23,050 bases of DNA from a virus, in IMG/VR virus record IMGVR_UViG_3300044675_005396, positions 1 to 23,050 of that record; one strand, given 5' to 3'. Positions within the stretch are counted from its first letter, which is position 1; each line of letters opens with the position of its first letter. Positions 1 through 23,050 of this stretch are shown here, piece after piece. Made by a program: the position numbers and the translations under genes. Below the pieces are notes generated by a model, which was not told the DNA's origin, made no database searches, and saw nothing but the letters and a program-made list of their open reading frames with translations.

Positions 1-297
1 GCTCTCAACGCCTTTGCTGGAGACTTTAATCTGTCTTGACGCTTTCGTTTCTTTCCGAGCGTTCACGGAAAATGGAAGACCTTCGCCTAAAGTAATAATT
101 ATTTCGCTTTCGCCAAACTCGATTTCAGATCGATCGTTTTCACGGAATCGGGCGAGCTTTAAAACGTACTGTGAAATGTACAGTACAAAACTATCTCGAT
201 TTTGTCCCTTAGTTTGTGTGTGCCAAGAATAAGACACGCTTTCATTGTTGCCGCACGGGGTGCTTGATACTAATTCCGACAGTTTAGTTAATTTCAT
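1..297 (-). CDS. Unknown protein, N-terminal 99 residues, cut by the left edge
   Basis: An open leftward frame starts at ATG 297 and stays open for 99 codons to base 1. An in-frame TAA lies seven codons upstream, so the ATG is the earliest start. The product begins MKLTKLSELVSSTPCG and continues with alternating charged and beta-type residues (for example SEIEFGESEIIITLGEG, residues 57-73). I recognise no family. Its base composition is clearly more AT-rich than the late genes to the right, so it may belong to an early or regulatory module or to the host. No Shine-Dalgarno sequence precedes it; the leader is A-rich. About 180 bp (298-478) separate it from the next leftward gene, and I see no convincing gene there. 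Coding status is supported by the long stop-free frame with plausible composition; function is unknown. Confidence 0.6.
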   Translation of the reverse strand, partial: MKLTKLSELVSSTPCGNNESVSYSWHTQTKGQNRDSFVLYISQYVLKLARFRENDRSEIEFGESEIIITLGEGLPFSVNARKETKASRQIKVSSKGVES

Positions 298-478
298 TGG
301 TTTTGTTTTTTGCTGGCCTTATTTCGCGGCCCGCCAGCTAGGTCGTTGGCCTTTAGTTTACGACGGTTGGCCCCGTCAAGTGGCACCTCGCGCCGCCTCC
401 GCTTGTCCCCGTATTATCGCGTTTCCACATGCTGCAATTCGGGGGGCGGTGATCAGCTGAGGTAATTGGTGCGGTTGA

Positions 479-601
479 TCAGTCCGCCTTTTGATCGTTT
501 TGCATTTCGTCAAGCGCGTCCTTTACCGGCTTTCCGGCGAAGGCGGCTGCAACCATCAGGCCGCCGAGAATGGCGGCGAAAGCGTAAGCTAGGGCAATCA
601 C
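479..601 (-). CDS. Small single-span membrane protein, 40 aa
   Basis: A 40-codon leftward frame starts at GTG 601, and that GTG overlaps the TGA stop of the RHH gene (GTGA overlap), the classic sign of translational coupling. Residues 1-22 are almost entirely hydrophobic (VIALAYAFAAILGGLMVAAA) and form one membrane helix. Residues 23-40 are a charged tail (KPVKDALDEMQNDQKAD). It is too short to assign to a family. Being coupled to a DNA-binding RHH gene suggests a shared regulatory or immunity role, but that is inference. The overlap is the main reason to believe it is a gene. Confidence 0.5.
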   Translation of the reverse strand: MIALAYAFAAILGGLMVAAAFAGKPVKDALDEMQNDQKAD

Positions 602-750
602 TTTGCCACCTCCGACTTGGCTTCCGACATTTCCAGCACAAAGCGAATGTGTCCCGACAAGGTGCGCCCTGCGGCCTTTGCCGATTTCCTCAATCGGGCA
701 ATCAGCCCGTCCTCGGCCTCAAAGCTCACGTTTTTCTTTCTTTTTTTCAT
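598..750 (-). CDS. Ribbon-helix-helix (Arc/CopG-like) DNA-binding protein, 50 aa
   Basis: A 50-codon leftward frame from ATG 750 gives a protein with the layout of the RHH fold. A basic N-terminus (MKKRKKN) is followed by a short beta strand (VSFEAE, residues 8-13), a first helix (DGLIARLRKSAKAAG, 14-28), the turn residues RT-LS, and a second helix (SGHIRFVLEMSEAK, 32-45). RHH proteins bind DNA as dimers through the strand and commonly act as repressors or antitoxins. The start lies two bases after the stop of the 82-aa gene and the stop overlaps the GTG of the 40-aa membrane gene, so the three form one transcription unit. A palindrome upstream of the unit at 1036-1058 is a candidate operator, but binding is not shown by the sequence. 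Confidence 0.65.
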   Translation of the reverse strand: MKKRKKNVSFEAEDGLIARLRKSAKAAGRTLSGHIRFVLEMSEAKSEVAK

Positions 751-752
751 GA

Positions 753-1001
753 TTAACCCTGATTAGGGTCTAGGGCGAAAGCCCTTTGCTCCGCCACCTC
801 GGCGGCCGTATACTGGGGGTTGCGGGCCATCATATCGGCCGCCGCCATTCTGCGGGCGGATACCTCGGCCCATGACCAATGTCCTACCTTGTCCCATACC
901 CGGGCACCAATATCAGCGCCGTGGACGGACTTCATTTCCCATTTTTCGTTTTTCATGTGTTTTTTGGTTACGTCGCCAACAATGCATCCCATTCCACGCA
1001 T
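753..1001 (-). CDS. Unknown small protein, 82 aa (or 67 aa from an internal ATG)
   Basis: This leftward frame starts at ATG 1001, with an AGGA element about 12 bases upstream, or at the internal ATG 956 (MKNEKWEMKSVHGADIG). The product is hydrophilic, with an Ala/Met-rich helical stretch (AEVSARRMAAADMMARNP) and ends FALDPNQG. No family is recognised. It is the first gene of a tightly packed leftward set: its TAA at 753-755 is followed after two bases by the ATG of the RHH protein. The upstream DNA is AT-rich and carries the 1036-1058 palindrome, so promoter and operator probably lie there. The opposite-strand frame over the same DNA looks like a shadow. Confidence 0.55.
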   Translation of the reverse strand: MRGMGCIVGDVTKKHMKNEKWEMKSVHGADIGARVWDKVGHWSWAEVSARRMAAADMMARNPQYTAAEVAEQRAFALDPNQG

Positions 1002-1035
1002 TGCAAGCTTTTTTCCTAAAATTTATTAAAAAACC

Positions 1036-1058
1036 CGTGTTTACCTAGGTAAAACACG
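1036..1058. promoter_or_regulatory. Palindromic operator candidate with core TTTACCTAGGTAAA
   Basis: A perfect 14-base palindrome (1040-1053) extends into CGTG/CACG arms with one extra A. It sits 35 bases upstream of the leftward 82-aa gene, next to an AT-rich stretch (around 1011-1033) that could supply a -10 box for leftward transcription. Two-fold symmetry and position suit a repressor site, possibly for the RHH protein encoded in the same unit. CCTAG recurs in inverted repeats near 2523-2586. Confidence 0.45.
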
Positions 1059-1107
1059 ATGAAAAAAATGTGGCGAACAGCGCAATTAGCCCAAGAATTA
1101 AGCCCAT

Positions 1108-1480
1108 GCCCTAATCAAAGCCTAGCGCTTTGGCTCGGGGTTAGTCGTCTGCGCACACCTCACCCATTGAAGGGAGGGATGTGCGGGTCTAAAGCGAAGC
1201 GCTTAGGACTGGGAAGCCTGTTGCATGCACGCGGATTGCTCCGCTCCGTAGCTTGCCCCCACGGCATCATGTCATTTCAGGGGGTGGAAGATTGAGGGGA
1301 GTAGGCGGCGGGTGATTACTCCGCTAGGCTGGCTTCGTCATCGGGCTATCACGGCCCATGCAAACACATCACCAGTTGCCCACTCTCCTCAATCGTCCAT
1401 TGCTACGGTCCTCACTGCCATTGCTGGCACCATGGAATTAAATCAGGCCGGTTATGGATCAAGCCTGATACCGTTTGTTT
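1108..1480. other. Gene-poor, hairpin-rich stretch
   Basis: No frame on either strand looks convincingly coding. Several inverted repeats are visible: CGCACA (1152-1157) with TGTGCG (1180-1185), whose interior also pairs as CCC/GGG; and ATCAGGC (1442-1448) with GCCTGAT (1463-1469). The stretch ends in a rightward terminator-like hairpin. It may encode a structured RNA or be a long leader; I do not recognise tmRNA, RNase P RNA or any other named RNA. Confidence 0.3.
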
Positions 1481-1482
1481 CT

Positions 1483-1524
1483 CTCCCTCGCTGCCGACTA
1501 AGGCAGGGAGCGGGGTTTGTTTTT
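1483..1524 (+). terminator. Rightward Rho-independent terminator candidate
   Basis: CTGCC (1491-1495) pairs with GGCAG (1502-1506) around a 6-base loop. The stem extends through a G.G mismatch to CTC/GAG and further C-G pairs, and is followed by TTTGTTTTT (1516-1524). It would end a rightward transcript entering from the 1060-1480 stretch. Confidence 0.4.
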
Positions 1525-1540
1525 CCCGAAGGCATAGCCT

Positions 1541-1584
1541 AAAAACAGAAAAGCCCGCCGAACGGGTGGAGGATTCGGCGGGCT
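1541..1584 (-). terminator. Leftward Rho-independent terminator
   Basis: A perfect 11-bp G+C-rich stem (1574-1584 with 1552-1562, loop of 11) is followed on the minus strand by TTTCTGTTTTT. No well-supported leftward protein gene ends just upstream, which raises the question of what transcript it terminates. Confidence 0.6.
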
Positions 1585-1690
1585 CTAGGAGCGGGTTTCG
1601 TGCAAGTTTCCTTGCAGTTCCACCCGCTCGGATGAGAGGAGAAAGGCGACCCCAGCGCTTTGGGTCAATGATGTGTTGGAATTATTTTAG
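1541..1690 (-). ncRNA. Putative leftward small RNA: nested hairpin followed by a terminator
   Basis: Read leftward, GAGCGGGT and ACCCGCTC (arms at 1622-1629 and 1589-1596) close a stem. Inside it TGCAAG/CTTGCA (arms at 1611-1616 and 1601-1606) forms a second stem. Directly downstream is a perfect 11-bp stem AGCCCGCCGAA/TTCGGCGGGCT (1574-1584 with 1552-1562) followed by TTTCTGTTTTT, a strong terminator. An AT-rich, -10-like TAAAAT lies near 1683-1690. A 25-codon TTG-started frame also spans the hairpin and stops at 1585, so a tiny gene with a terminator is the alternative. The terminator is well supported; the RNA gene is inference. Confidence 0.3.
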
Positions 1691-1710
1691 GTTTATTTTT
1701 TTTGTGCCAT

Positions 1711-1776
1711 TCACTGAGCATTCACGGAGTCCTCACTGAGTGCTCACGGAGTCCTCACTGAGTGCTCACAACATGC
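1711..1776. repeat. Cluster of six 11-bp phased repeats (iteron-like)
   Basis: Consecutive 11-mers begin at 1711, 1722, 1733, 1744, 1755 and 1766: TCACTGAGCAT, TCACGGAGTCC, TCACTGAGTGC, TCACGGAGTCC, TCACTGAGTGC and a degenerate TCACAACATGC. They alternate T and G at position 5, so the array also reads as a 22-bp tandem repeat. Spacing is about one helical turn. An AT-rich tract (about 1679-1708) lies directly to the left. Confidence 0.8.
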
Positions 1777-1906
1777 CCCCAAAATGCTCAAAATCTCGCC
1801 AACGCAAAACCCCTTGTTTTCCGCACCCCCTGATTTTTGCGTTTTTACGCCACAAAAAAACAGCCCATCCGTTTTTTGCCTTTGCAAGTCGTTGACCAAT
1901 ATCAAT

Positions 1907-1961
1907 GCAGTGACGACTCACTGATTACTCCGTGATTGATCAGTGATCATTCACTGCGGGA
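1907..1961. repeat. Second cluster of 11-bp phased repeats
   Basis: Five consecutive 11-mers begin at 1907, 1918, 1929, 1940 and 1951: GCAGTGACGAC, TCACTGATTAC, TCCGTGATTGA, TCAGTGATCAT and TCACTGCGGGA. They share a TCACTGA-like half with the cluster at 1711-1776. The 11-base register is kept, although units are more diverged than in the first cluster. Confidence 0.55.
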
Positions 1962-2010
1962 AGGGAAGGGAAGGGAACAAGGGAACAAGGGAACAAGGGA
2001 ACAAGGGAAA
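1958..2010. repeat. GGGAA / GGGAACAA minisatellite
   Basis: Three copies of GGGAA (1958-1972) run into four copies of GGGAACAA (1973-2004) and a final GGGAAAGG. It is a simple slippage-prone repeat at the edge of the phased-repeat region. Frames that read through it give low-complexity protein and are not credible genes. Confidence 0.9.
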
Positions 2011-2033
2011 GGAGAAGGCGCTTTCGCGCCGTC

Positions 2034-2055
2034 GTCGGCTTTGCCGACCTTTTTT
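2034..2055 (+). terminator. Rightward Rho-independent terminator
   Basis: GTCGGC (2034-2039) pairs with GCCGAC (2043-2048) across a TTT loop and is followed by C and six T residues (2050-2055). A second hairpin, GGCGC/GCGCC (2017-2030), lies just before it. No rightward gene is evident upstream. Confidence 0.55.
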
Positions 2056-2317
2056 GCCAAATCCCCCAAAAATAGAACAAATGCGTTTTAAGCCCACCAT
2101 CAAAGCAGCCCGCTACCTTGGCCTTGGCAGCATCATTTGCGCTCGATTTTAGGCACAAACTCGGCACTTGGCGCGCCATTTCAAAAACATCCAAGCGCCC
2201 AATTTGCCCCAATCAGCGCCAATTACCCATCAACAGGCTTGCACCTCACTCGCACATCCACCATCCACCTTTCGTGGATTGCGGCGGAGCTTTCATCTCT
2301 GGTTAGTTTAAACCACA

Positions 2318-2349
2318 CAGGCCGGAACAACCGCATAATGTCCGGCCTG
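2318..2349. promoter_or_regulatory. 9-bp inverted repeat upstream of a small gene
   Basis: CAGGCCGGA (2318-2326) and TCCGGCCTG (2341-2349) are perfect complements around a 14-base spacer, ending 10 bases before the ATG at 2360. It could be an operator or a leader hairpin. It lacks a T-run, so it is unlikely to be a terminator. Confidence 0.4.
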
Positions 2350-2359
2350 CCAAAAAACC

Positions 2360-2530
2360 ATGACCACTTCTCAAAAAATTAAATCAAGCGCGGGCAATGC
2401 TCGGCGCAACAACCGCCGGACTCTCTCGCTCAAACCTAAGTGGGTGCGCATCATCATGGCAGGCGGTCACCTCCCTCCCCCCCCTCCCAACCTTTGGGGC
2501 CTTGGCGTTAAACCGGCAAAAATTGCCTAG
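2360..2530 (+). CDS. Possible small basic protein, 56 aa
   Basis: A rightward frame from ATG 2360 to TAG 2528-2530 gives a 56-residue protein. The N-terminal half is strongly basic (KIKSSAGNARRNNRRTLSLK) and the C-terminal half contains a run of five prolines encoded by a C-rich tract. No family is recognised. It sits directly upstream of the terminase genes. The eight-C run (2477-2484) makes the frame sensitive to sequencing error or slippage. A competing rightward frame overlaps its first 23 bases. Coding status is uncertain. Confidence 0.3.
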   Translation: MTTSQKIKSSAGNARRNNRRTLSLKPKWVRIIMAGGHLPPPPPNLWGLGVKPAKIA

Positions 2531-2586
2531 TTCATAGGCAAATGCCCCCCCCCCCAAATTTTTTTACTAGGTACTTTTTGCCTAGT
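2523..2586. promoter_or_regulatory. Pair of CCTAG-containing inverted repeats flanking an 11-C tract
   Basis: TTGCCTA (2523-2529) and TAGGCAA (2535-2541) form a perfect 7-bp inverted repeat with a 5-base spacer. ACTAGG (2566-2571) and CCTAGT (2581-2586) form a second. Between them lie 11 consecutive C residues (2545-2555), AAA and seven T residues. The region is immediately upstream of the terminase operon, where a late promoter and its control sites would be expected. No consensus promoter is clear. Confidence 0.4.
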
Positions 2587-2668
2587 GCCATGCCGCAGGG
2601 AATTTACACAGCCCCGAGGCTTTTTTAGGCATAGATTTTTAATCTTAGGTTTCCTGCTTAACTTACTC

Positions 2669-3148
2669 ATGATAACCATTGCACAAGCGGCCAAGATTTT
2701 GACGGTTACGCATCGGCGCATAACGCAGATGGTCGAAGAGGGGAAATTGAAGCGCCCCGAGCCCGGGCGAATTTCTTGCGAATCGATTGCCGAGTTTATC
2801 CGCGACGAGAGGAAGGCAAGCGATGAAGCGCCAGGCGATTACGAAGCTGACAAGGCGCGAAAGATGAAAGCGGACGCAGACCTTGCCGAGCTGCTTACGG
2901 CGAAGGAGGGGCGCAAGCTCGTCGAGATCGCCAAGATTGAGCGGCGGTGGGCAAACGCATTAAGCGGGCTGCGCGGCAAGTGCATGGCGATGCCTGCGCG
3001 GATTGGCCCGATGGTGGTGATTGCAAAGAGCGCGGGCGATGCGACCAAGTTAATCGAGACCGAGCTGCGCGACGCATTTGAAAGCATCGCGGACGATGGG
3101 CCTGATGACGGCGCGGAAAGGGAAAGCGAGGAGGGCGAAGCAGAATGA
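2669..3148 (+). CDS. Terminase small subunit (DNA-packaging, Nu1-like)
   Basis: The small terminase subunit binds phage DNA at the packaging site and hands it to the large subunit. I chose ATG 2669 (MITIAQAAKILTVTHRRITQ, 159 aa) because it begins exactly at a helix-turn-helix like that of lambda Nu1: ITIAQAAKIL, VTHRRITQMVEEGKL, then a Pro-Gly wing (KRPEPGR). The 28 residues that an upstream ATG at 2585 would add are not family-like. A long charged helical middle (KARKMKADADLAELLTAKEG) and an acidic tail (DDGPDDGAERESEEGEAE) follow; the tail is a plausible contact for the large subunit. The stop overlaps the large-subunit start by four bases (ATGA). The family is inferred from the N-terminal fold and the partner gene; overall similarity to Nu1 looks low. 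Confidence 0.8.
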   Translation: MITIAQAAKILTVTHRRITQMVEEGKLKRPEPGRISCESIAEFIRDERKASDEAPGDYEADKARKMKADADLAELLTAKEGRKLVEIAKIERRWANALSGLRGKCMAMPARIGPMVVIAKSAGDATKLIETELRDAFESIADDGPDDGAERESEEGEAE

Positions 3149-5157
3149 GCCAAGCCATTAAAAAGTATTGCCGCGCCAACGACAAAGCCGCGCTGGTTCG
3201 GGCGTGGAAGTTTCTGCGTTGGCCGATGAAGATGACCGTTGCCGAATGGGCTGAAAAATACCGCATCCTTTCGCGTGGCGCTTCGTCGGAGCCGGGCAAA
3301 TATCGGTGCGACCGCGTGCCGTACCAGCGCGAAATCATGGAATCTTTCACCGCGCCGGATGTTCGGGAGACGGTCCTTTGCATCGCTAGTCAGGTTGGAA
3401 AAACCGAGCTGATGAACAACCTTATCGGCTACATGATTCATGCCGACCCGTCGCCGATCTTGGTTAAATACCCGACGCTTGACGCCTCAAAGGGTTACTC
3501 GAAGGAGAAGCTTGATCCAATGATCCAAGACACGCCTGTATTGGCTGCGCTGATACAAGACGCGAGGTCGCGTGACAGCGGAAACACGATTTTGCAAAAG
3601 AGCTTTCCTGGTGGTTTTATCCGAATCGCGGGGGCCAACTCACCGAGCGGGCTGCGGCGGGCGTCGTGCCGCGTCGTGCTACAGGATGAAATCGACTCAG
3701 ACCCATTTTCAGCAGGCGAAGAAGGCGACCCATGCGCGTTAGCGGATCGACGCGCCTCCAATTTTTCCAACGCGGTAAAAGTCAAGATGTCCACGCCGAC
3801 GGTCAAGGGCCGGTCAAAGATTTGGGCGCTGCTTGAGGATTCCGACTTTCGGACGTGGCGAGCGATTTGCCCGCATTGCAACAAGGCGCAGGAGCTGACA
3901 TGGGCGGGCGTGCGTTGGGACAAAGATGCCGAGGGCAAGGCGATGCCAGAAACGGCCTATTACTTGGGCGAGTGCGGCTGCCGGTGGACGGACCTTGACC
4001 GGCAACGTGCAATCGTTCGTGGGCATTGGCAGGCGCGGCAACCGTTCAAGGGCAGGCGCGGCTACCACTTGAGCGGCCTTTACCGGCTCATGGGTCACAA
4101 GCCTCAGTTCACCTCCATGCTCCATGAGTTCGCGGTGGATTTTCTTGAGTCGAAGGCGGGCGGGCCCGAGCGAATGAAGCCTTGGATGAACACTTTTTTG
4201 GCGGAACCTTCGGAAGAAGAATTTGAAAAGCTCGACGAGAAATCCGTGCTGGCACGCGCCGAGGACTACAACCCTGACGAGCTGTTGCCCGCGGGCGTGC
4301 TGCGCATAGCGGCGGGTGCCGACGTGCAGGATGACCGAATCGAGTGTGAGTTTGTTGGATACGGCGAGGGCGAGGAAACGTGGGGGCTCGGGTATCACGT
4401 TATCCACGGCGACACGCAGGCGGATAAGGTGTGGGAGGAGCTGGACTTGCTACTTGCGAAAACCTTCACGCATCCCAGCGGCAAGGTAATGGGGGCAGCG
4501 ACGACGTTCATCGATTCGGGGGCAAAGCAAGATCGCGTCCTACAGTTCACCGGCCCCCGCCGGTCGCGTGGGATTTTCGCGTCGAAGGGCCAAAACACCA
4601 TCGGCAAACAAATCCCGATCATGCAACGGAAGCCGTCGATTAACAACAAGCGCAAGGTCCACCAGTGGATGGTGGGCGTCACGGCAGCTAAGACGGTGAT
4701 TTATTCGCGCATCATGTTGCCGGTGCCAGGCGCGGGCTCGATGCACTTCCCGAAAGGGCACGGTTACGACACGCGCTTTTACCACCAGTTGACGAGTGAA
4801 AAGCGGATGACGCGGTACAGCCACGGGCGGCCGTATTACATCTACGAGGCGGGCAACCGGCGCAACGAACCGCTCGACATCCGAGTGTATGCGCTCGCCG
4901 CTCACCGCCGCTTGACATTCGACACGGTGGCGATTCGTGCGGAAATGGCGGCGATGGTGAAGCCAGACGCGCCAACGACTGCGCCGGTTCCCGAACCTGC
5001 CGCAAATCAAACGCAAGCACAGCCCGAGCGGATCGTTGGCAACATCGTCGTGGAGCGTGCGCCCATCCCGCAACCGAGCGCAATCCTGCCCGCCTACGTG
5101 CCGATGTCGCAACGGCGCGGCGCGGGAGGAACCGGCGAGTCAATGTTTAGCCAATGA
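3145..5157 (+). CDS. Terminase large subunit, lambda GpA family
   Basis: This is the ATP-driven packaging motor and endonuclease that cuts concatemers and translocates DNA into the prohead. The 670-aa length fits the GpA family (lambda gpA is about 640 aa). Visible landmarks are a Walker A-type loop ASQVGKTE (residues 81-88), a Walker B strand with DEID (RVVLQDEID, 176-184), a zinc-ribbon-like insert with C242, C245, C277 and C279, and a C-terminal nuclease half. The nuclease has candidate metal-binding Asp393 (GADVQDDR) and Asp457 (FIDSG). The last 70 residues are Ala/Pro/Gln-rich and probably flexible. A clear GGAGG-type ribosome site precedes the ATG, unusual among these genes. Its last 11 bases overlap the 3' end of an antisense gene. 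Confidence 0.95.
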   Translation: MSQAIKKYCRANDKAALVRAWKFLRWPMKMTVAEWAEKYRILSRGASSEPGKYRCDRVPYQREIMESFTAPDVRETVLCIASQVGKTELMNNLIGYMIHADPSPILVKYPTLDASKGYSKEKLDPMIQDTPVLAALIQDARSRDSGNTILQKSFPGGFIRIAGANSPSGLRRASCRVVLQDEIDSDPFSAGEEGDPCALADRRASNFSNAVKVKMSTPTVKGRSKIWALLEDSDFRTWRAICPHCNKAQELTWAGVRWDKDAEGKAMPETAYYLGECGCRWTDLDRQRAIVRGHWQARQPFKGRRGYHLSGLYRLMGHKPQFTSMLHEFAVDFLESKAGGPERMKPWMNTFLAEPSEEEFEKLDEKSVLARAEDYNPDELLPAGVLRIAAGADVQDDRIECEFVGYGEGEETWGLGYHVIHGDTQADKVWEELDLLLAKTFTHPSGKVMGAATTFIDSGAKQDRVLQFTGPRRSRGIFASKGQNTIGKQIPIMQRKPSINNKRKVHQWMVGVTAAKTVIYSRIMLPVPGAGSMHFPKGHGYDTRFYHQLTSEKRMTRYSHGRPYYIYEAGNRRNEPLDIRVYALAAHRRLTFDTVAIRAEMAAMVKPDAPTTAPVPEPAANQTQAQPERIVGNIVVERAPIPQPSAILPAYVPMSQRRGAGGTGESMFSQ

Positions 5158-5323
5158 CGGCATCCCGAACCAGCCGCTCGAATGCTCGAGCGTGGCTGAG
5201 TTTGGTTAAGTGGCAATATAGCCGGAAGCGTGAGGCAGTGTATGCGTTCACCTTCACCGTGACCGCCACCCGAGCGGGGCCAGCCTTGCGGCCTGCCCCT
5301 TTGCGTTTGCCCCCTGCGGTCAT
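5147..5323 (-). CDS. Antisense RHH-like DNA-binding protein, 58 aa
   Basis: A leftward frame from ATG 5323 gives 58 residues. A basic Gly-rich head (MTAGGKRKGAGRKAG) is followed by a beta strand (ARVAVTVKVN, residues 17-26), a helix (AYTASRFRLYCHLTK, 27-41), a short turn and a second helix (SHARAFERLVRDAVIG, 43-58). That is the strand-helix-helix plan of RHH repressors and antitoxins. The ATG overlaps the TGA of the 60-aa gene upstream (ATGA), so the two are translated as a pair. The stop lies inside the terminase gene on the other strand. It resembles the 598-750 RHH protein in plan but not in residues. The 67-aa rightward frame over the same DNA is Pro/Arg-rich and judged a shadow. Confidence 0.65.
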   Translation of the reverse strand: MTAGGKRKGAGRKAGPARVAVTVKVNAYTASRFRLYCHLTKLSHARAFERLVRDAVIG

Positions 5324-5502
5324 AGGCTGGCCGCAACCTCTGCGGCGATGCGCTTAGTACGGAAGCACATAACGATACCGTCCGCATTGCAGAGCATCCC
5401 GCCAGTGGCGAGAACCACGGCAAAACCTTTTGACCAAGTGCGGCCAAAAGCACCAACGCGAAATTCACCAGCAGGGCAAGAGAAGGAAATGACAGAGTTC
5501 AT
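5320..5502 (-). CDS. Antisense small protein of unknown function, 60 aa
   Basis: The leftward frame from ATG 5502 gives a compact 60-aa protein (MNSVISFSCPAGEFRVGAFG at the start, FRTKRIAAEVAASL at the end) with a Gly-rich middle and three Cys residues. An AGGG element lies about 10 bases upstream of the ATG. No family is recognised. It overlaps the downstream RHH gene by four bases, and the two point against the late operon. The DNA upstream (5503-5597) is AT-rich and could hold a leftward promoter, for example TTGATT with TGCAAT about 17 bases later, but this match is weak. A toxin-antitoxin pair, a repressor operon or a prophage-expressed 'moron' are all possible. Confidence 0.55.
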   Translation of the reverse strand: MNSVISFSCPAGEFRVGAFGRTWSKGFAVVLATGGMLCNADGIVMCFRTKRIAAEVAASL

Positions 5503-5597
5503 GAGTTAGACCCTGACCGCGTGTTTGATTGATTGCAAGCACTAAATCAAAAAAAATCAAATTGCCTTATGTTGTCACGGACAACAATCACAACCGC

Positions 5598-5792
5598 ATG
5601 AACAAAATTGAAAGAATTTCGCCAGTCCTCCTCATCATCGGTGGAATAATCCCGACGGCAATCGGCATCGCCTGGATCATCTTGCCGTTCCTACTCATCT
5701 CGCGCCTCGACATGATCAAGACCGAGATCAACGAAATAAACGTCGCCGTAATGCGGCACGAAGCACGCGCGCGCAATCCGGCGAACCGCTGA
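5598..5792 (+). CDS. Small membrane protein, 64 aa
   Basis: From ATG 5598 the product MNKIERISPVLLIIGGIIPT... has one long hydrophobic segment (about residues 9-36) that could cross the membrane once or as a tight pair. A charged C-terminal helix follows (DMIKTEINEINVAVMRHEAR). A longer TTG-started version from 5529 would add a hydrophilic, Lys-rich head; the ATG is preferred because it starts just before the hydrophobic core. No Shine-Dalgarno is seen. A membrane protein between terminase and portal genes is out of place for a head module. It might be a holin-like or superinfection-exclusion protein, but I cannot assign it. Confidence 0.5.
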   Translation: MNKIERISPVLLIIGGIIPTAIGIAWIILPFLLISRLDMIKTEINEINVAVMRHEARARNPANR

Positions 5793-5808
5793 GTTGACGG
5801 CGGCAATC

Positions 5809-5827
5809 GTATCGGCTAATCCGATAC
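5809..5827 (+). promoter_or_regulatory. Hairpin immediately before a start codon
   Basis: GTATCGG (5809-5815) and CCGATAC (5821-5827) pair perfectly around CTAAT, ending one base before the ATG at 5829. In mRNA it would occlude the initiation region of the 295-aa gene. As DNA it is a possible operator. Confidence 0.45.
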
Positions 5828-5828
5828 A

Positions 5829-6716
5829 ATGAAGATCACCGCAACCGTTGACGTTAAGCCGGTCGAAACATTTTTCGGCCAGCTTGCCGTCGTGCTGCGC
5901 AAGAAGGTCCCCGAGACGATCAGAGGCGAGGTGAAGCACATCATCCGCGCAACGCTGCGGATGCACAAGCACTTAAAGCCCGCTGAAGTACAGGCGCGTG
6001 CTTTCAAAAAAGGTGTGGCGTCGTTTCGCGGATCGGGTGGCAGCAGTTTTGGCGGAACCACCAACGTCTCGGGGCGGCGCGGCGAGTACGGGCGGCAATG
6101 GATGGTTGGGCGGCGCGGAACTAAAAAAGCAATTCCAATGGGGTGGTTTAACCCAGATTCGGGAAGGTTTGCATTTTTGCAAAACGGATCAAGCAAAGGA
6201 GGCACCAAGGGCATGAAACTAAACCGCAGTCCTAACGGGGTCAATCGACTACGCGCCAAGCACCGCAGCCGCAACGGGTGGCGCGTGAAGGAGGATGATT
6301 GGAATAACTTTAAGCGTACGTGGTATGAAGACATGCAAGACACTGATGACCGAATCAGGGACCGGCTCGCCGCCCGAGGTATCACTGCGCGGTCTTGGCT
6401 TGAGGTTATTCAAAAGCTGCAAAGCGGAGACGCCGAGGGCATCCCCGACTTTGTGCGCCGCGCTCGGCCAATTTCCAATCGCTCCCGAACGATTGCGGGC
6501 GTCATCGCCACCGGCGAACGCACAAATAACTTCGAGATCACCGTTCTCAATTTTTCCGGTCTGGCATCGGCAACGGGCGGTCAGCGCAAACTTGAGAGCG
6601 CAATCTCGGCCCGCCGCCGATTCTTCATGCAGCACTTGGACAATGGATTTTATTCCGACGCTAAGTTTGTCGCCAAGTATCACCCGTGGGCGAGCGTGAA
6701 GCCGCGCCAACACTAA
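5829..6716 (+). CDS. Unknown phage structural protein, 295 aa
   Basis: The ATG at 5829 begins MKITATVDVKPVETFFGQLA. The N-terminal 45 residues (a beta strand, then amphipathic basic helices) loosely recall tail-completion proteins of the HK97 gp10 or minor-tail Z type. The middle is very Gly/Arg/Ser-rich (about residues 58-140, with several RRG and GRRG motifs), and the C-terminal part is mixed alpha/beta. The pI looks strongly basic. Position between terminase and gpW is unusual for a tail-completion protein, so a DNA- or head-associated role is also possible. The family assignment is weak; the gene itself is well supported by length and by clean spacing to its neighbours. Confidence 0.75.
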   Translation: MKITATVDVKPVETFFGQLAVVLRKKVPETIRGEVKHIIRATLRMHKHLKPAEVQARAFKKGVASFRGSGGSSFGGTTNVSGRRGEYGRQWMVGRRGTKKAIPMGWFNPDSGRFAFLQNGSSKGGTKGMKLNRSPNGVNRLRAKHRSRNGWRVKEDDWNNFKRTWYEDMQDTDDRIRDRLAARGITARSWLEVIQKLQSGDAEGIPDFVRRARPISNRSRTIAGVIATGERTNNFEITVLNFSGLASATGGQRKLESAISARRRFFMQHLDNGFYSDAKFVAKYHPWASVKPRQH

Positions 6717-8908: not shown

Positions 8909-10222
8909 ATGGCTGACGCACTCTCACCAAACAGGCTAATCGCTCCCGTTGTATTGGTTAATCCTGATACACTCATACCCTACGACGCAAACGCCGCATA
9001 CGAACCCATCGGCGGCAAGATGCTCGTCGGCACTTCCCGCGAGAAATTCTTTGAGAATTTCCGCGACTTCGACACCAGCCCCACAGGCAATTGGGAGGTG
9101 GTGCAGACGGGCACCGGCATGGCGATCACCGGCCCGCTCGGTGGAGCCGCTGCGGGCAGCTCGCCGTATGTCAACATCGCCAGCGGTGTGGACGACGGCG
9201 CAGTGACCGTTATTCTTTCCCGCTCCACGTTCTCCGCGCCCGTTGAGGTGCGTTACCAAATCACCGCCTCGCAGCGCATCGCCAACAACGCGTTCAGGAT
9301 CGGCTTCGTCGAGGTGGATGACGCTGGCGCGGTGGTGGTTGATACGACCTATGCAGCCGCCCCCGGCGTGCTTAATGCGCGTAATGCGGTCATGCAAGAA
9401 ATTAGCGGCACCACGGCAACGAGCGGCACGCTCCTAGTGCGTGCCGCAGCCAGCGCGATCTCGACACTGACAACCAATTTCGGTGCCGGCTTCACGACCT
9501 TAGCCACCGGCTCCGCGCCTGATTTCCTCACGGCAACGACATTCGGGCTAATGTTCGAGCGGGACAAAATCAACGCTCGCGCATGGGGCATGAACGTAAT
9601 CACGAACACCGGCGGGCAATTCGGCTACGACCGCACGCTCCTTAATCCGAACCGCCAATACAAACTTTGTATCATCGTGGAGAATACGGGCGTCCCCGCC
9701 TCCTCGACTGATTGGCGCATCCACCTCGTCAACGTGATGGACGCCTTGCGCTTCGACGTGAGCCCACGCATGGCGGGCACGAACGACCAGTCGAAAGCAT
9801 TTCCGGCGTTCATCGGGGGCGGTACACTAGGCACCGTGACAACGATTACCACGGCGGGCACCCCCGCAGCCCCCACGGCTTACGTCGTCAACAGCGCCGC
9901 AACCACAAACGGGGCCAATCTATCGGCAGCCACCACGGGCCTCCAATCCGTCTATACGACCAACACGGGAGCGGGTGCGGCGTTCGTAAAACTCTACAAC
10001 AAAGCCACCGCGCCCACAGTCGGCACAGATGTTCCCGTGATGATTATCCCCGTCCCCGCCGCAGTGGCCGGTGTCCCTGGCGTCGCGCAAATCTCACCAG
10101 GCTTTAACGGCTACCGATTCGCACTCGGCCTCGGCATCGCGATCACGGGGGCGGTTGCCGACACCGACACCACCGCCGTCGCAGCCGGACAGGTCAAAGT
10201 CATCCTCAGCCGCACCACCTAA
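8909..10222 (+). CDS. Beta-rich head decoration or head-fibre candidate, 437 aa
   Basis: The protein is rich in Gly, Ala, Thr and Val with frequent beta alternation and few charged helices, as in surface-exposed virion proteins. The C-terminal domain (about residues 325-437) carries a pattern I know from many phage structural proteins: a start of the type AYVVNSAATTNGANLSA, then AAFVKLYNKATAPTVGTDVP, and an end with TDTTAVAAGQVKVILSRTT. The N-terminal 300 residues are not recognised. Location between portal and prohead protease argues for a head role (decoration or fibre). The ATG follows an A-rich leader with no Shine-Dalgarno. The stop overlaps the next start (TAATG). Confidence 0.65.
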   Translation: MADALSPNRLIAPVVLVNPDTLIPYDANAAYEPIGGKMLVGTSREKFFENFRDFDTSPTGNWEVVQTGTGMAITGPLGGAAAGSSPYVNIASGVDDGAVTVILSRSTFSAPVEVRYQITASQRIANNAFRIGFVEVDDAGAVVVDTTYAAAPGVLNARNAVMQEISGTTATSGTLLVRAAASAISTLTTNFGAGFTTLATGSAPDFLTATTFGLMFERDKINARAWGMNVITNTGGQFGYDRTLLNPNRQYKLCIIVENTGVPASSTDWRIHLVNVMDALRFDVSPRMAGTNDQSKAFPAFIGGGTLGTVTTITTAGTPAAPTAYVVNSAATTNGANLSAATTGLQSVYTTNTGAGAAFVKLYNKATAPTVGTDVPVMIIPVPAAVAGVPGVAQISPGFNGYRFALGLGIAITGAVADTDTTAVAAGQVKVILSRTT

Positions 10223-10407
10223 TGAGCGCCGAGGTACAAATCAAAACGGATTTGGCCCCGTACTACGAGATCGAGGTGGCGTTTAACGCCTTAACCTTCC
10301 CGCAGCTTATCACCACGCAGGCCACGGGGGAGGCCCTAGGGGCGCAACTACAGACCTACGCCGATGACTACGAGCAGGCGTTTAACGCTGAACAAACCCA
10401 ACTATAA
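10222..10407 (+). CDS. Small acidic protein, 61 aa, head module
   Basis: The 61-aa product (MSAEVQIKTDLAPYYEIEVA start, AFNAEQTQL end) is acidic, with two predicted helices. Its ATG overlaps the stop of the decoration-like gene (TAATG), and it ends three bases before the protease gene. I recognise no family. Tight coupling on both sides makes it a real gene; an accessory head role is inference. Confidence 0.6.
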   Translation: MSAEVQIKTDLAPYYEIEVAFNALTFPQLITTQATGEALGAQLQTYADDYEQAFNAEQTQL

Positions 10408-10410
10408 TTT

Positions 10411-11445
10411 ATGCCCCTCGTTCAATTTTACAACGCAGAGCCGCTCCAACTCACCAACGTCGACCCAGAAAATGGCATCCTCCGCAACGTCGCGCTTATG
10501 TCGATTGGCGAGGCTGCGGGCCACGACTGCCGCGTGGACTTGGGCACCTTGCAAGGGCTCTTTCAGTTGAGCCAAGGCAAGAGCGTAAAAGCCTTTTTGA
10601 ACCACTCCTACAACCCCGCGCCAACGGAGGTCGTCGGAGTGTTCTCGGGAATCTACATCGACGCCGAAAAAGGCGTTCTCCGTGCCTCGCAATTCAAGGC
10701 GCTCGAAGCATTCAAGAACCACAACCGCCAAGCCTACGACACGCTCTTTGAATTGTCGATGACCGCGCCGGAATCTTTCGGCGTTTCCGTCTCGATTTAC
10801 CACGATTTAGAGGACGCGGAAGACGGAGGAAGCGCATTCATCCGCCCGACATCTATCGAGTCAGCCGACTTCGTTTCCGCGCCCGCAGCAAACAAAGCCC
10901 TTTTCAGCAAGGAAACACCGCTTGACGTATCCGAAAAACAAATACACAACGAAATCACCCCCACTTTACCTGTAGTTGAAAACCCACCACACGCCCACTT
11001 TATGAGCACACTCAAAGACATCCATTCCGCCTTCGGAAAAAATCCCGAACACGTTGCCCGCGCCGTCAAATTCGCTGCCGAAAACCCCGAGGCCAAACCC
11101 GAGGATGTTATTGACGCCGTAAAAGATCAGCTTTCCGAAGAAGACCAAGCCGCCCTGATTGCCGAGCGTGACGCTCTGGTGATTGAGGTCGCCGCTCTTA
11201 AAGCCGAGATTGCCGCGCTCAAGCCCGACGCTGAAAAAGCCGCTGACCTTTCCAAGAAAAACAGCGAGCTCTCCGAGCAAGTCGCCCAGCTTTCCAAGCG
11301 CACCGCACGTTTCGGTATCCGCCCTGTTAATACCGGAGCACACGAAGCAAAAGAGGTGAAGTCTATCACCCGAGCCGAGTTCTCCGCGCTCAACCCCGTC
11401 GCTCAAGGACAGCACGTAGCAGCGGGCGGCAAAATCACCGCATAA
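10411..11445 (+). CDS. Prohead protease fused to scaffold
   Basis: The 344-aa protein appears to combine a maturation protease and scaffold, as in lambda C/Nu3-type genes. The N-terminal domain (about residues 1-168) has a His in LNHSY (His65), a GVFSGIYID strand pair and a Ser in ESFGVSVSI (Ser126 or Ser128), followed by SADFVSAPAANKALF. This matches the His-Ser plan of caudovirus prohead proteases. A Pro-rich linker (183-194) leads to a helical scaffold half with a coiled coil (AERDALVIEVAALKAEIAAL, 251-270) and a Gly/Ala-rich basic tail. The scaffold would guide coat assembly and then be cleaved out. It lies directly before the major capsid gene. The catalytic assignments come from motif position only. 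Confidence 0.8.
   Translation: MPLVQFYNAEPLQLTNVDPENGILRNVALMSIGEAAGHDCRVDLGTLQGLFQLSQGKSVKAFLNHSYNPAPTEVVGVFSGIYIDAEKGVLRASQFKALEAFKNHNRQAYDTLFELSMTAPESFGVSVSIYHDLEDAEDGGSAFIRPTSIESADFVSAPAANKALFSKETPLDVSEKQIHNEITPTLPVVENPPHAHFMSTLKDIHSAFGKNPEHVARAVKFAAENPEAKPEDVIDAVKDQLSEEDQAALIAERDALVIEVAALKAEIAALKPDAEKAADLSKKNSELSEQVAQLSKRTARFGIRPVNTGAHEAKEVKSITRAEFSALNPVAQGQHVAAGGKITA
11002..11445 (+). CDS. Possible nested scaffold from an internal ATG
   Basis: An in-frame ATG at codon 198 (MSTLKDIHSAFGKNPEHVAR) sits exactly at the end of the Pro-rich linker, at the start of the scaffold half. Independent initiation here would make a 147-aa scaffold without protease, as lambda Nu3 is made within C. There is no Shine-Dalgarno, but most genes here also lack one. 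This is an inference from domain boundaries. Confidence 0.35.
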   Translation: MSTLKDIHSAFGKNPEHVARAVKFAAENPEAKPEDVIDAVKDQLSEEDQAALIAERDALVIEVAALKAEIAALKPDAEKAADLSKKNSELSEQVAQLSKRTARFGIRPVNTGAHEAKEVKSITRAEFSALNPVAQGQHVAAGGKITA

Positions 11446-22876: not shown

Positions 22877-23050
22877 CTACACAACGTTAGGCAAAACGGA
22901 AAGAAATGTTTCGTGGTGTTTGCCGTCGATGTGCCATCGCCAGCCGTGGCATCTCTCGACGCAATTCTTTCTGCGTGGGCTAAGCATTGCTATTGCAGCT
23001 TCGATTCTAGTTCTCCCTCGAAAGTTTACTGGCGATAACTGATCACTCGT
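22877..23050 (-). CDS. Leftward open frame entering from the right edge (C-terminal 57 residues)
   Basis: A leftward frame is open from base 23050 to a TAG at 22877-22879. The 57 visible residues (TSDQLSPVNFRGRTRIEAAI... FLSVLPNVV) contain a Cys/His/Trp cluster (CVERCHGWRWHIDGKHH). The other two leftward frames carry stops. It faces the late operon and ends about 140 bases from its terminator. No family recognised; the frame is short enough that chance is possible. The rightward 109-aa frame over the same DNA starts inside the terminator and is judged spurious. Confidence 0.35.
   Translation of the reverse strand, partial: TSDQLSPVNFRGRTRIEAAIAMLSPRRKNCVERCHGWRWHIDGKHHETFLSVLPNVV

Follow-up and report, generated by a model that had tools for sequence, protein, structure and literature searches.

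The two small leftward genes at 5147–5502 of the window, which is the entire IMG/VR record of 23,050 bases, are one example of a modular unit that we found on ~70 IMG/VR contigs of uncultured viruses. Each unit consisted of a conserved switch, a payload ORF and a conserved RHH (ribbon-helix-helix) gene, the last mostly starting at ATGA. We propose that this unit, a payload coupled to its autorepressor, works like the acr-aca locus of phages, and that the payload probably acts against host defences. We give this reading a probability of about 0.6.

The payload ORF, P60 (5320..5502 (−), 60 aa, ATG start), and the RHH gene, the proposed repressor (5147..5323 (−), 58 aa, ATG start), were positioned at the stop codon of the terminase large subunit gene terL (3145..5157 (+), GpA type), on the opposite strand. 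The other flank of the insertion was formed by a conserved head-module gene of 295 aa (5829..6716 (+)), and a lambda-type portal was recognized downstream of terL. These coordinates confirm what the first-pass annotation had described, namely two leftward ORFs of 60 and 58 aa with an ATGA overlap, lying between terL and the head genes, and the stop of the second one inside terL, in its 3′ end. The 60-aa protein had been called unrecognised there, and it remained so. P60 matched no known family in Pfam, NCBIfam, PADLOC and PHROGs, nor any toxin family in these libraries, an absence that proves little at 60 aa. Its structure model was poor (pLDDT 58, alignment of 3 sequences). In the proposed unit, P60 would be an early-expressed effector.

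Both genes have homologues. Protein searches gave relatives of the 58-aa protein on 29 viral loci and of P60 on 3 viral loci. The P60 homologues in L032 and L033 were 88–90% identical, each downstream of its own copy of the switch. The dN/dS values (Nei-Gojobori) of the 58-aa protein were 0.28 against the very close L003 and 0.08–0.18 against six others (7 pairs), and those of P60 were 0.11–0.13 against L032 and L033 (2 pairs). In the one pair per protein compared across all six frames (two pairs in total), the annotated frame had the lowest dN and the highest dS. The first-pass annotation had treated both frames as genes, and the relatives and low ratios agree with this, pointing to purifying selection on both proteins. 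That the two are chance ORFs opposite the packaging operon, for which nothing but their small size speaks, is practically out of the question, given the homologues, the selection and the conserved switch.

The 58-aa protein is a genuine RHH protein. Alone, it gave a weak Pfam match to RHH_10 (E 0.06). Across the 48 aligned family members, RHH_10 (PF23807) matched 32 (best 6.8e-7) and RHH_1 matched 21. The AlphaFold model, based on the 48-relative alignment, had a pLDDT of 84 overall and ~95 in the core, with helices at 27–40 and 44–54 and an extended segment ahead of the first one. The leading Foldseek neighbours were nearly all RHH proteins (CopASO, ParG, CopG, Arc, MazE), and the top ones, CopASO, ParG and CopG, had an rmsd of 1.0–1.6 over ~38 residues. 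The E-values were above 0.001, because a 58-residue protein is so small. With VIA-align, the model reached a Z of ~5 to Arc, CopG and NikR. The RHH plan with a basic, Gly-rich head, as read by the first-pass annotation, was thus borne out by the profiles across the family, AlphaFold and Foldseek. The head, GGKRKGAGRKAG in the window, precedes the strand-helix-helix. In the family, the N-terminal GGKRxGAGRK is near-invariant and forms a separate basic arm. The same peptide was also present in many other viral contigs, and GGKRxGAGR proved so common that it dominated a profile search aimed at remote RHHs (600 stretches, 12 relatives).

Upstream of P60 was a conserved switch region (5510–5551 (−)), absent from the first-pass annotation. 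It has a 28-bp block, TTTGATTTAGTGCTTGCAATCAATCAAA (5524..5551 (−)), in which a 7-bp inverted repeat, TTTGATT...AATCAAA, spans the −35 element TTGCAA, and a proposed −10 element, CAGGGT (5510..5515 (−)), ~7 nt before the ATG. The family switch reads TTTGAwwTA-N4-TTGCAA-NN-AATCAAA, 28 bp with the inverted repeat over the −35, and the −10 consensus is nAnnnT. The block was first spotted by comparing the neighbourhoods of loci from the protein search, and this observation is free of pattern bias; the information content within the 28 bp is biased by the search pattern. A first scan with a bare 15-mer returned mainly chance matches. The pattern scan of 2.9 million viral contigs gave 71 stretches. 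At two or fewer mismatches there were 55 distinct matches, and 52 of them had an RHH gene behind. Of the other three, two were cut copies of units found whole elsewhere, and L153 seems to be a chance hit. Scanning with another pattern, made for a divergent clade, brought in more contigs, every one with an RHH gene. The link between switch and RHH is two-way: the RHH search led to the switch, and the switch search led to RHH genes. The exact pattern gave 3 hits in bacterial and archaeal genomes (84,980 species), a search by which diverged switches would be missed. None of the three had an RHH gene behind, and we took them as chance.

The payload ATG was 35 nt from TTGCAA in 42/52 units, and 34 or 36 nt in most others, including the window (36 nt). 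An SD-like tetramer preceded the first ORF in 1/51 units, and the RHH start overlapped the stop of the first ORF by 4 nt (ATGA) in 29/51. The A and T columns of the −10 consensus were conserved, though they are outside the search pattern. In the divergent clade the −10 was canonical, TGTAATCT or TGTAGTAT, ~7 nt upstream of the ATG. A generic sigma-70 scan found no promoter at the window unit, and CAGGGT is weak by E. coli rules. The fixed ATG spacing, together with the near absence of an SD and the conserved −10 columns, points to a promoter with a predicted leaderless mRNA, and we propose, from the sequence pattern, that the inverted repeat over the −35 is the operator of the RHH protein.

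The payloads of the units were exchanged independently of the RHH genes. The 49 payloads fell into 34 unrelated families, and all RHHs into one cluster. Among the 81 unit pairs with an RHH identity of at least 85%, the payload family was common to 6 (directly adjacent pairs). At the same site, the window and L003 carried unrelated payloads, in a setting (terL flank, 28-bp switch and RHH) that was nearly identical in sequence. The same payload family also recurred with RHHs only 39–75% identical. In L032 and L033, P60 was part of a stand-alone unit of switch and payload, ahead of a complete second unit. Such decoupling would be expected of a common repressor acting on DNA, as in an acr-aca-like layout, and speaks against a cognate toxin-antitoxin pair, which should not show it.

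A type II toxin-antitoxin module, with the 60-aa protein as toxin and the 58-aa RHH as antitoxin, had been among the suggestions of the first-pass annotation. It would agree with two small overlapping genes, the RHH second, under their own predicted promoter, with the presence of the unit in attC cassette arrays, where toxin-antitoxin cassettes are common (PMC8618304), and with the weak matches of 12/48 RHHs to the BrnA antitoxin. However, near-identical RHHs were found behind unrelated first genes, payload units without an RHH of their own exist (L032/L033), and no payload matched a toxin family in the libraries searched. Moreover, most RHHs of the family are 55–68 aa long and end just after helix 2 (in the window, at residue 54 of 58), and neither the sequence alignment nor the model of the 58-aa protein has a toxin-binding segment beyond the RHH. 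The module is thus not supported, and we consider it quite improbable.

The position and the orientation of the unit varied among relatives. In the window and L003 it was antisense at the terL stop, an orientation special to the phage group of the window. L005 and L167 had it at the terL stop as well, but in sense orientation. The largest group carried it, again in sense orientation, between terS and terL, and there its switch overlapped the stop codon that precedes the unit. In G001–G003 the units were in cassette arrays far from terL, and the terL site was empty in G002 and G003. This variation indicates that the antisense position is one variant, and not the function. The first-pass annotation had also considered an antisense device, in which leftward transcription through 5147 modulates the terL mRNA. 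The RHH stop lies within terL, and between this stop and terL there was no convincing terminator (two terminator-like sites in 4900–6000, about chance expectation), as such a device would want. With relatives carrying the unit in sense or far from terL, antisense modulation is not a conserved feature, and we regard it as highly unlikely.

L003 TerL (1157–4354 (−)) had an in-frame insert after SQVGK, in the Walker A region, with LAGLIDADG / Hom_end domains; the insert is probably an intein in this packaging ATPase. L167 TerL, also ~1060 aa, may hold an intein as well.

No match to the 58-aa protein or to the wider RHH-family consensus was found in 50,697 isolate phages, and plasmids gave only hits with an E of 0.2–0.4. 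The only isolate-phage hit of P60, a weak one to Lactobacillus phage LBR48 (38%, E 0.3), was taken as chance. In the literature, which we covered partially, no description of the unit was found.

The relatives G001–G003, which are the records of L004, L006 and L007, had the same packaging and head genes as the window phage. In their arrays, the genes were separated by ~90 bp elements with GCCYAACG...GGTTRGGC ends, and units of promoter, payload and RHH were array members. Sixteen such elements shared a hairpin fold, with 9/21 pairs backed by two-sided changes, as in attC sites. With an attC covariance model, clear sites were detected in G001 (10), G002 (8) and G003 (7). Seven sites were found in the sequenced array of G012, a record near identical to the window, and further sites in L155, L189 and L199. 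The window itself had no attC site (covariance model R1, E up to 0.1). An integron integrase (TIGR02249) was not found in 11 unit-bearing records, which are fragments, so that its absence is not proof. A 402-aa ORF of G001, first taken for an integrase, had no Pfam match.

In relatives of the window phage, attC arrays with no detected integron integrase were located in L206 (1500–5500 (−)), L207 (6900–11200), L209 (1600–5200) and L213 (1–4000); in addition to the RHH units, they carried numerous small cassette genes of no known kind. One payload family had a member in an attC array (L007, unit at 1821) and another in a unit of a different phage (L150, unit at 2586); the two members were 73% identical, and their RHHs only 39%. 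The window phage and G012, near identical wherever compared, parted abruptly at a CTAACGTT box that borders the attC array (window 22893–23050; L213, from G012, 1–4362). The cassette arrays of the window phage and G012 seem to differ. G001 also encoded a RusA resolvase and a YqaJ-type recombinase (L206:8283–8738 and 9844–10482 (−)), enzymes that might assist in exchanging payloads across short conserved flanks.

With respect to function, no payload matched a known anti-defence family in PADLOC (0 matches), Pfam or NCBIfam (none meaningful), libraries which hold few anti-CRISPRs. The only strong Pfam match was DUF1391 (L006:2254–2421, 55 aa, 8e-25). One payload had weak matches to several PHROGs of unknown function, and the rest matched little or nothing. 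YdfA/YdaF, proteins of E. coli prophages, belong to the DUF1391 family. The Qin dicBF operon starts with ydfA (PMC10448788), and its DicB is reported to protect the cell against phage infection (PMC6832061). YdfA itself is uncharacterised.

A unit of the same build could also carry general morons, with payloads for superinfection exclusion, lysogenic conversion or host takeover. Its anatomy would be identical, and the sole payload with a clear known family is the one linked through ydfA to the dicBF operon. However, the payloads are small and are replaced very often at a fixed locus, which, by analogy, would fit an arms race better, and we find general morons rather unlikely. The first-pass annotation had named a lysogenic-conversion moron. 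The moron-like part of this, a gene block gained and lost, is supported; as for the payload function, we would favour counter-defence.

In the acr-aca-like mechanism that we propose, a promoter with its −35 inside the inverted repeat would drive a leaderless mRNA for an exchangeable payload (here P60) and the RHH, with the 58-aa RHH translationally coupled to the payload. During infection the promoter would at first be free, and payload and RHH would be made at once. RHH dimers would then occupy the inverted repeat and switch the promoter off, and the payload would appear as an early burst, leaving the surrounding late genes undisturbed. Antitoxin and repressor were the roles initially considered for the RHH; a repressor-type role is supported, and repression itself is predicted. 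The payload would most likely be a protein for counter-defence or host takeover; its frequent replacement next to a constant switch and repressor would then be explained. Of all steps of this model, the anti-defence role of the payloads is the weakest. Since the conserved switch and RHH flank the payload, homologous recombination could swap payloads, and in relatives whole units also travel as attC gene cassettes.

More broadly, the unit may be an RHH-controlled payload port, a slot filled anew by recombination, and by integron-type attC cassettes in some genera, with at least 34 mostly unknown families having anti-defence functions. We hold this tentatively, at just short of even odds. If true, the 28-bp switch would serve as bait for new anti-defence repertoire, and the phage cassette arrays would be its stores. 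The switch and the RHH are a simple sequence handle for dozens of unknown small phage proteins, nearly all family-less. If these are counter-defence proteins, they would provide a ready screening list, from phages whose unit is absent from the isolate collections searched.

Aca proteins act on an inverted repeat in the core promoter to repress their own operons, and Aca1–Aca10 are HTH, not RHH proteins (PMC9410906). The acr-aca operons have the same small variable first gene(s), with a conserved DNA-binding gene behind and one regulator family for many payload families. They also have the same inverted repeat inside the core promoter, here a putative operator conserved across units. In contrast to them, our unit has an RHH regulator, as indicated by profiles and structure prediction, a predicted leaderless mRNA with fixed spacing, and members inside attC arrays, and none of its payloads is a known anti-CRISPR. 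The 58-aa protein shares its fold with Arc, CopG, ParG and MazE-type RHH proteins, but is distinct by its basic, Gly-rich GGKRxGAGRK arm and had no close sequence relative among solved structures.

In p576-type plasmids, an RHH autorepressor gives a transient early burst of establishment genes; the same study compares this control with anti-CRISPR regulation, and states that phage repressors of such kind are HTH (PMC8708921). This Reg576 regulon, of p576/clade II pLS20-family plasmids, likewise has an RHH autorepressor, a conserved promoter-operator and small early genes with an entry burst (PMC8708921). In our unit the burst would be a prediction, and the likeness is one of layout. Unlike our unit, the Reg576 regulon belongs to conjugative plasmids, has several promoters per plasmid under one repressor, and lacks the two-gene build with an exchanged first gene. 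In archaeal viruses, too, many unrelated small genes share a conserved regulatory sequence, by which anti-defence genes can be baited (PMC11065993). That system differs in having TATA/BRE promoters, and its Aca8 is a predicted wHTH protein located apart from the payloads. CALINs in phages are already known (PMC9892861), and the attC arrays without a detected integrase in G001–G003, G012 and others are similar to them. Different from those, one recurring cassette kind is here a defined unit of promoter, payload and repressor, and the window copy is without attC. Together, these comparisons suggest that the unit would be the RHH counterpart, in phages, of Aca-type control, extending the acr-aca logic to an RHH regulator and tying it to phage-borne attC arrays.
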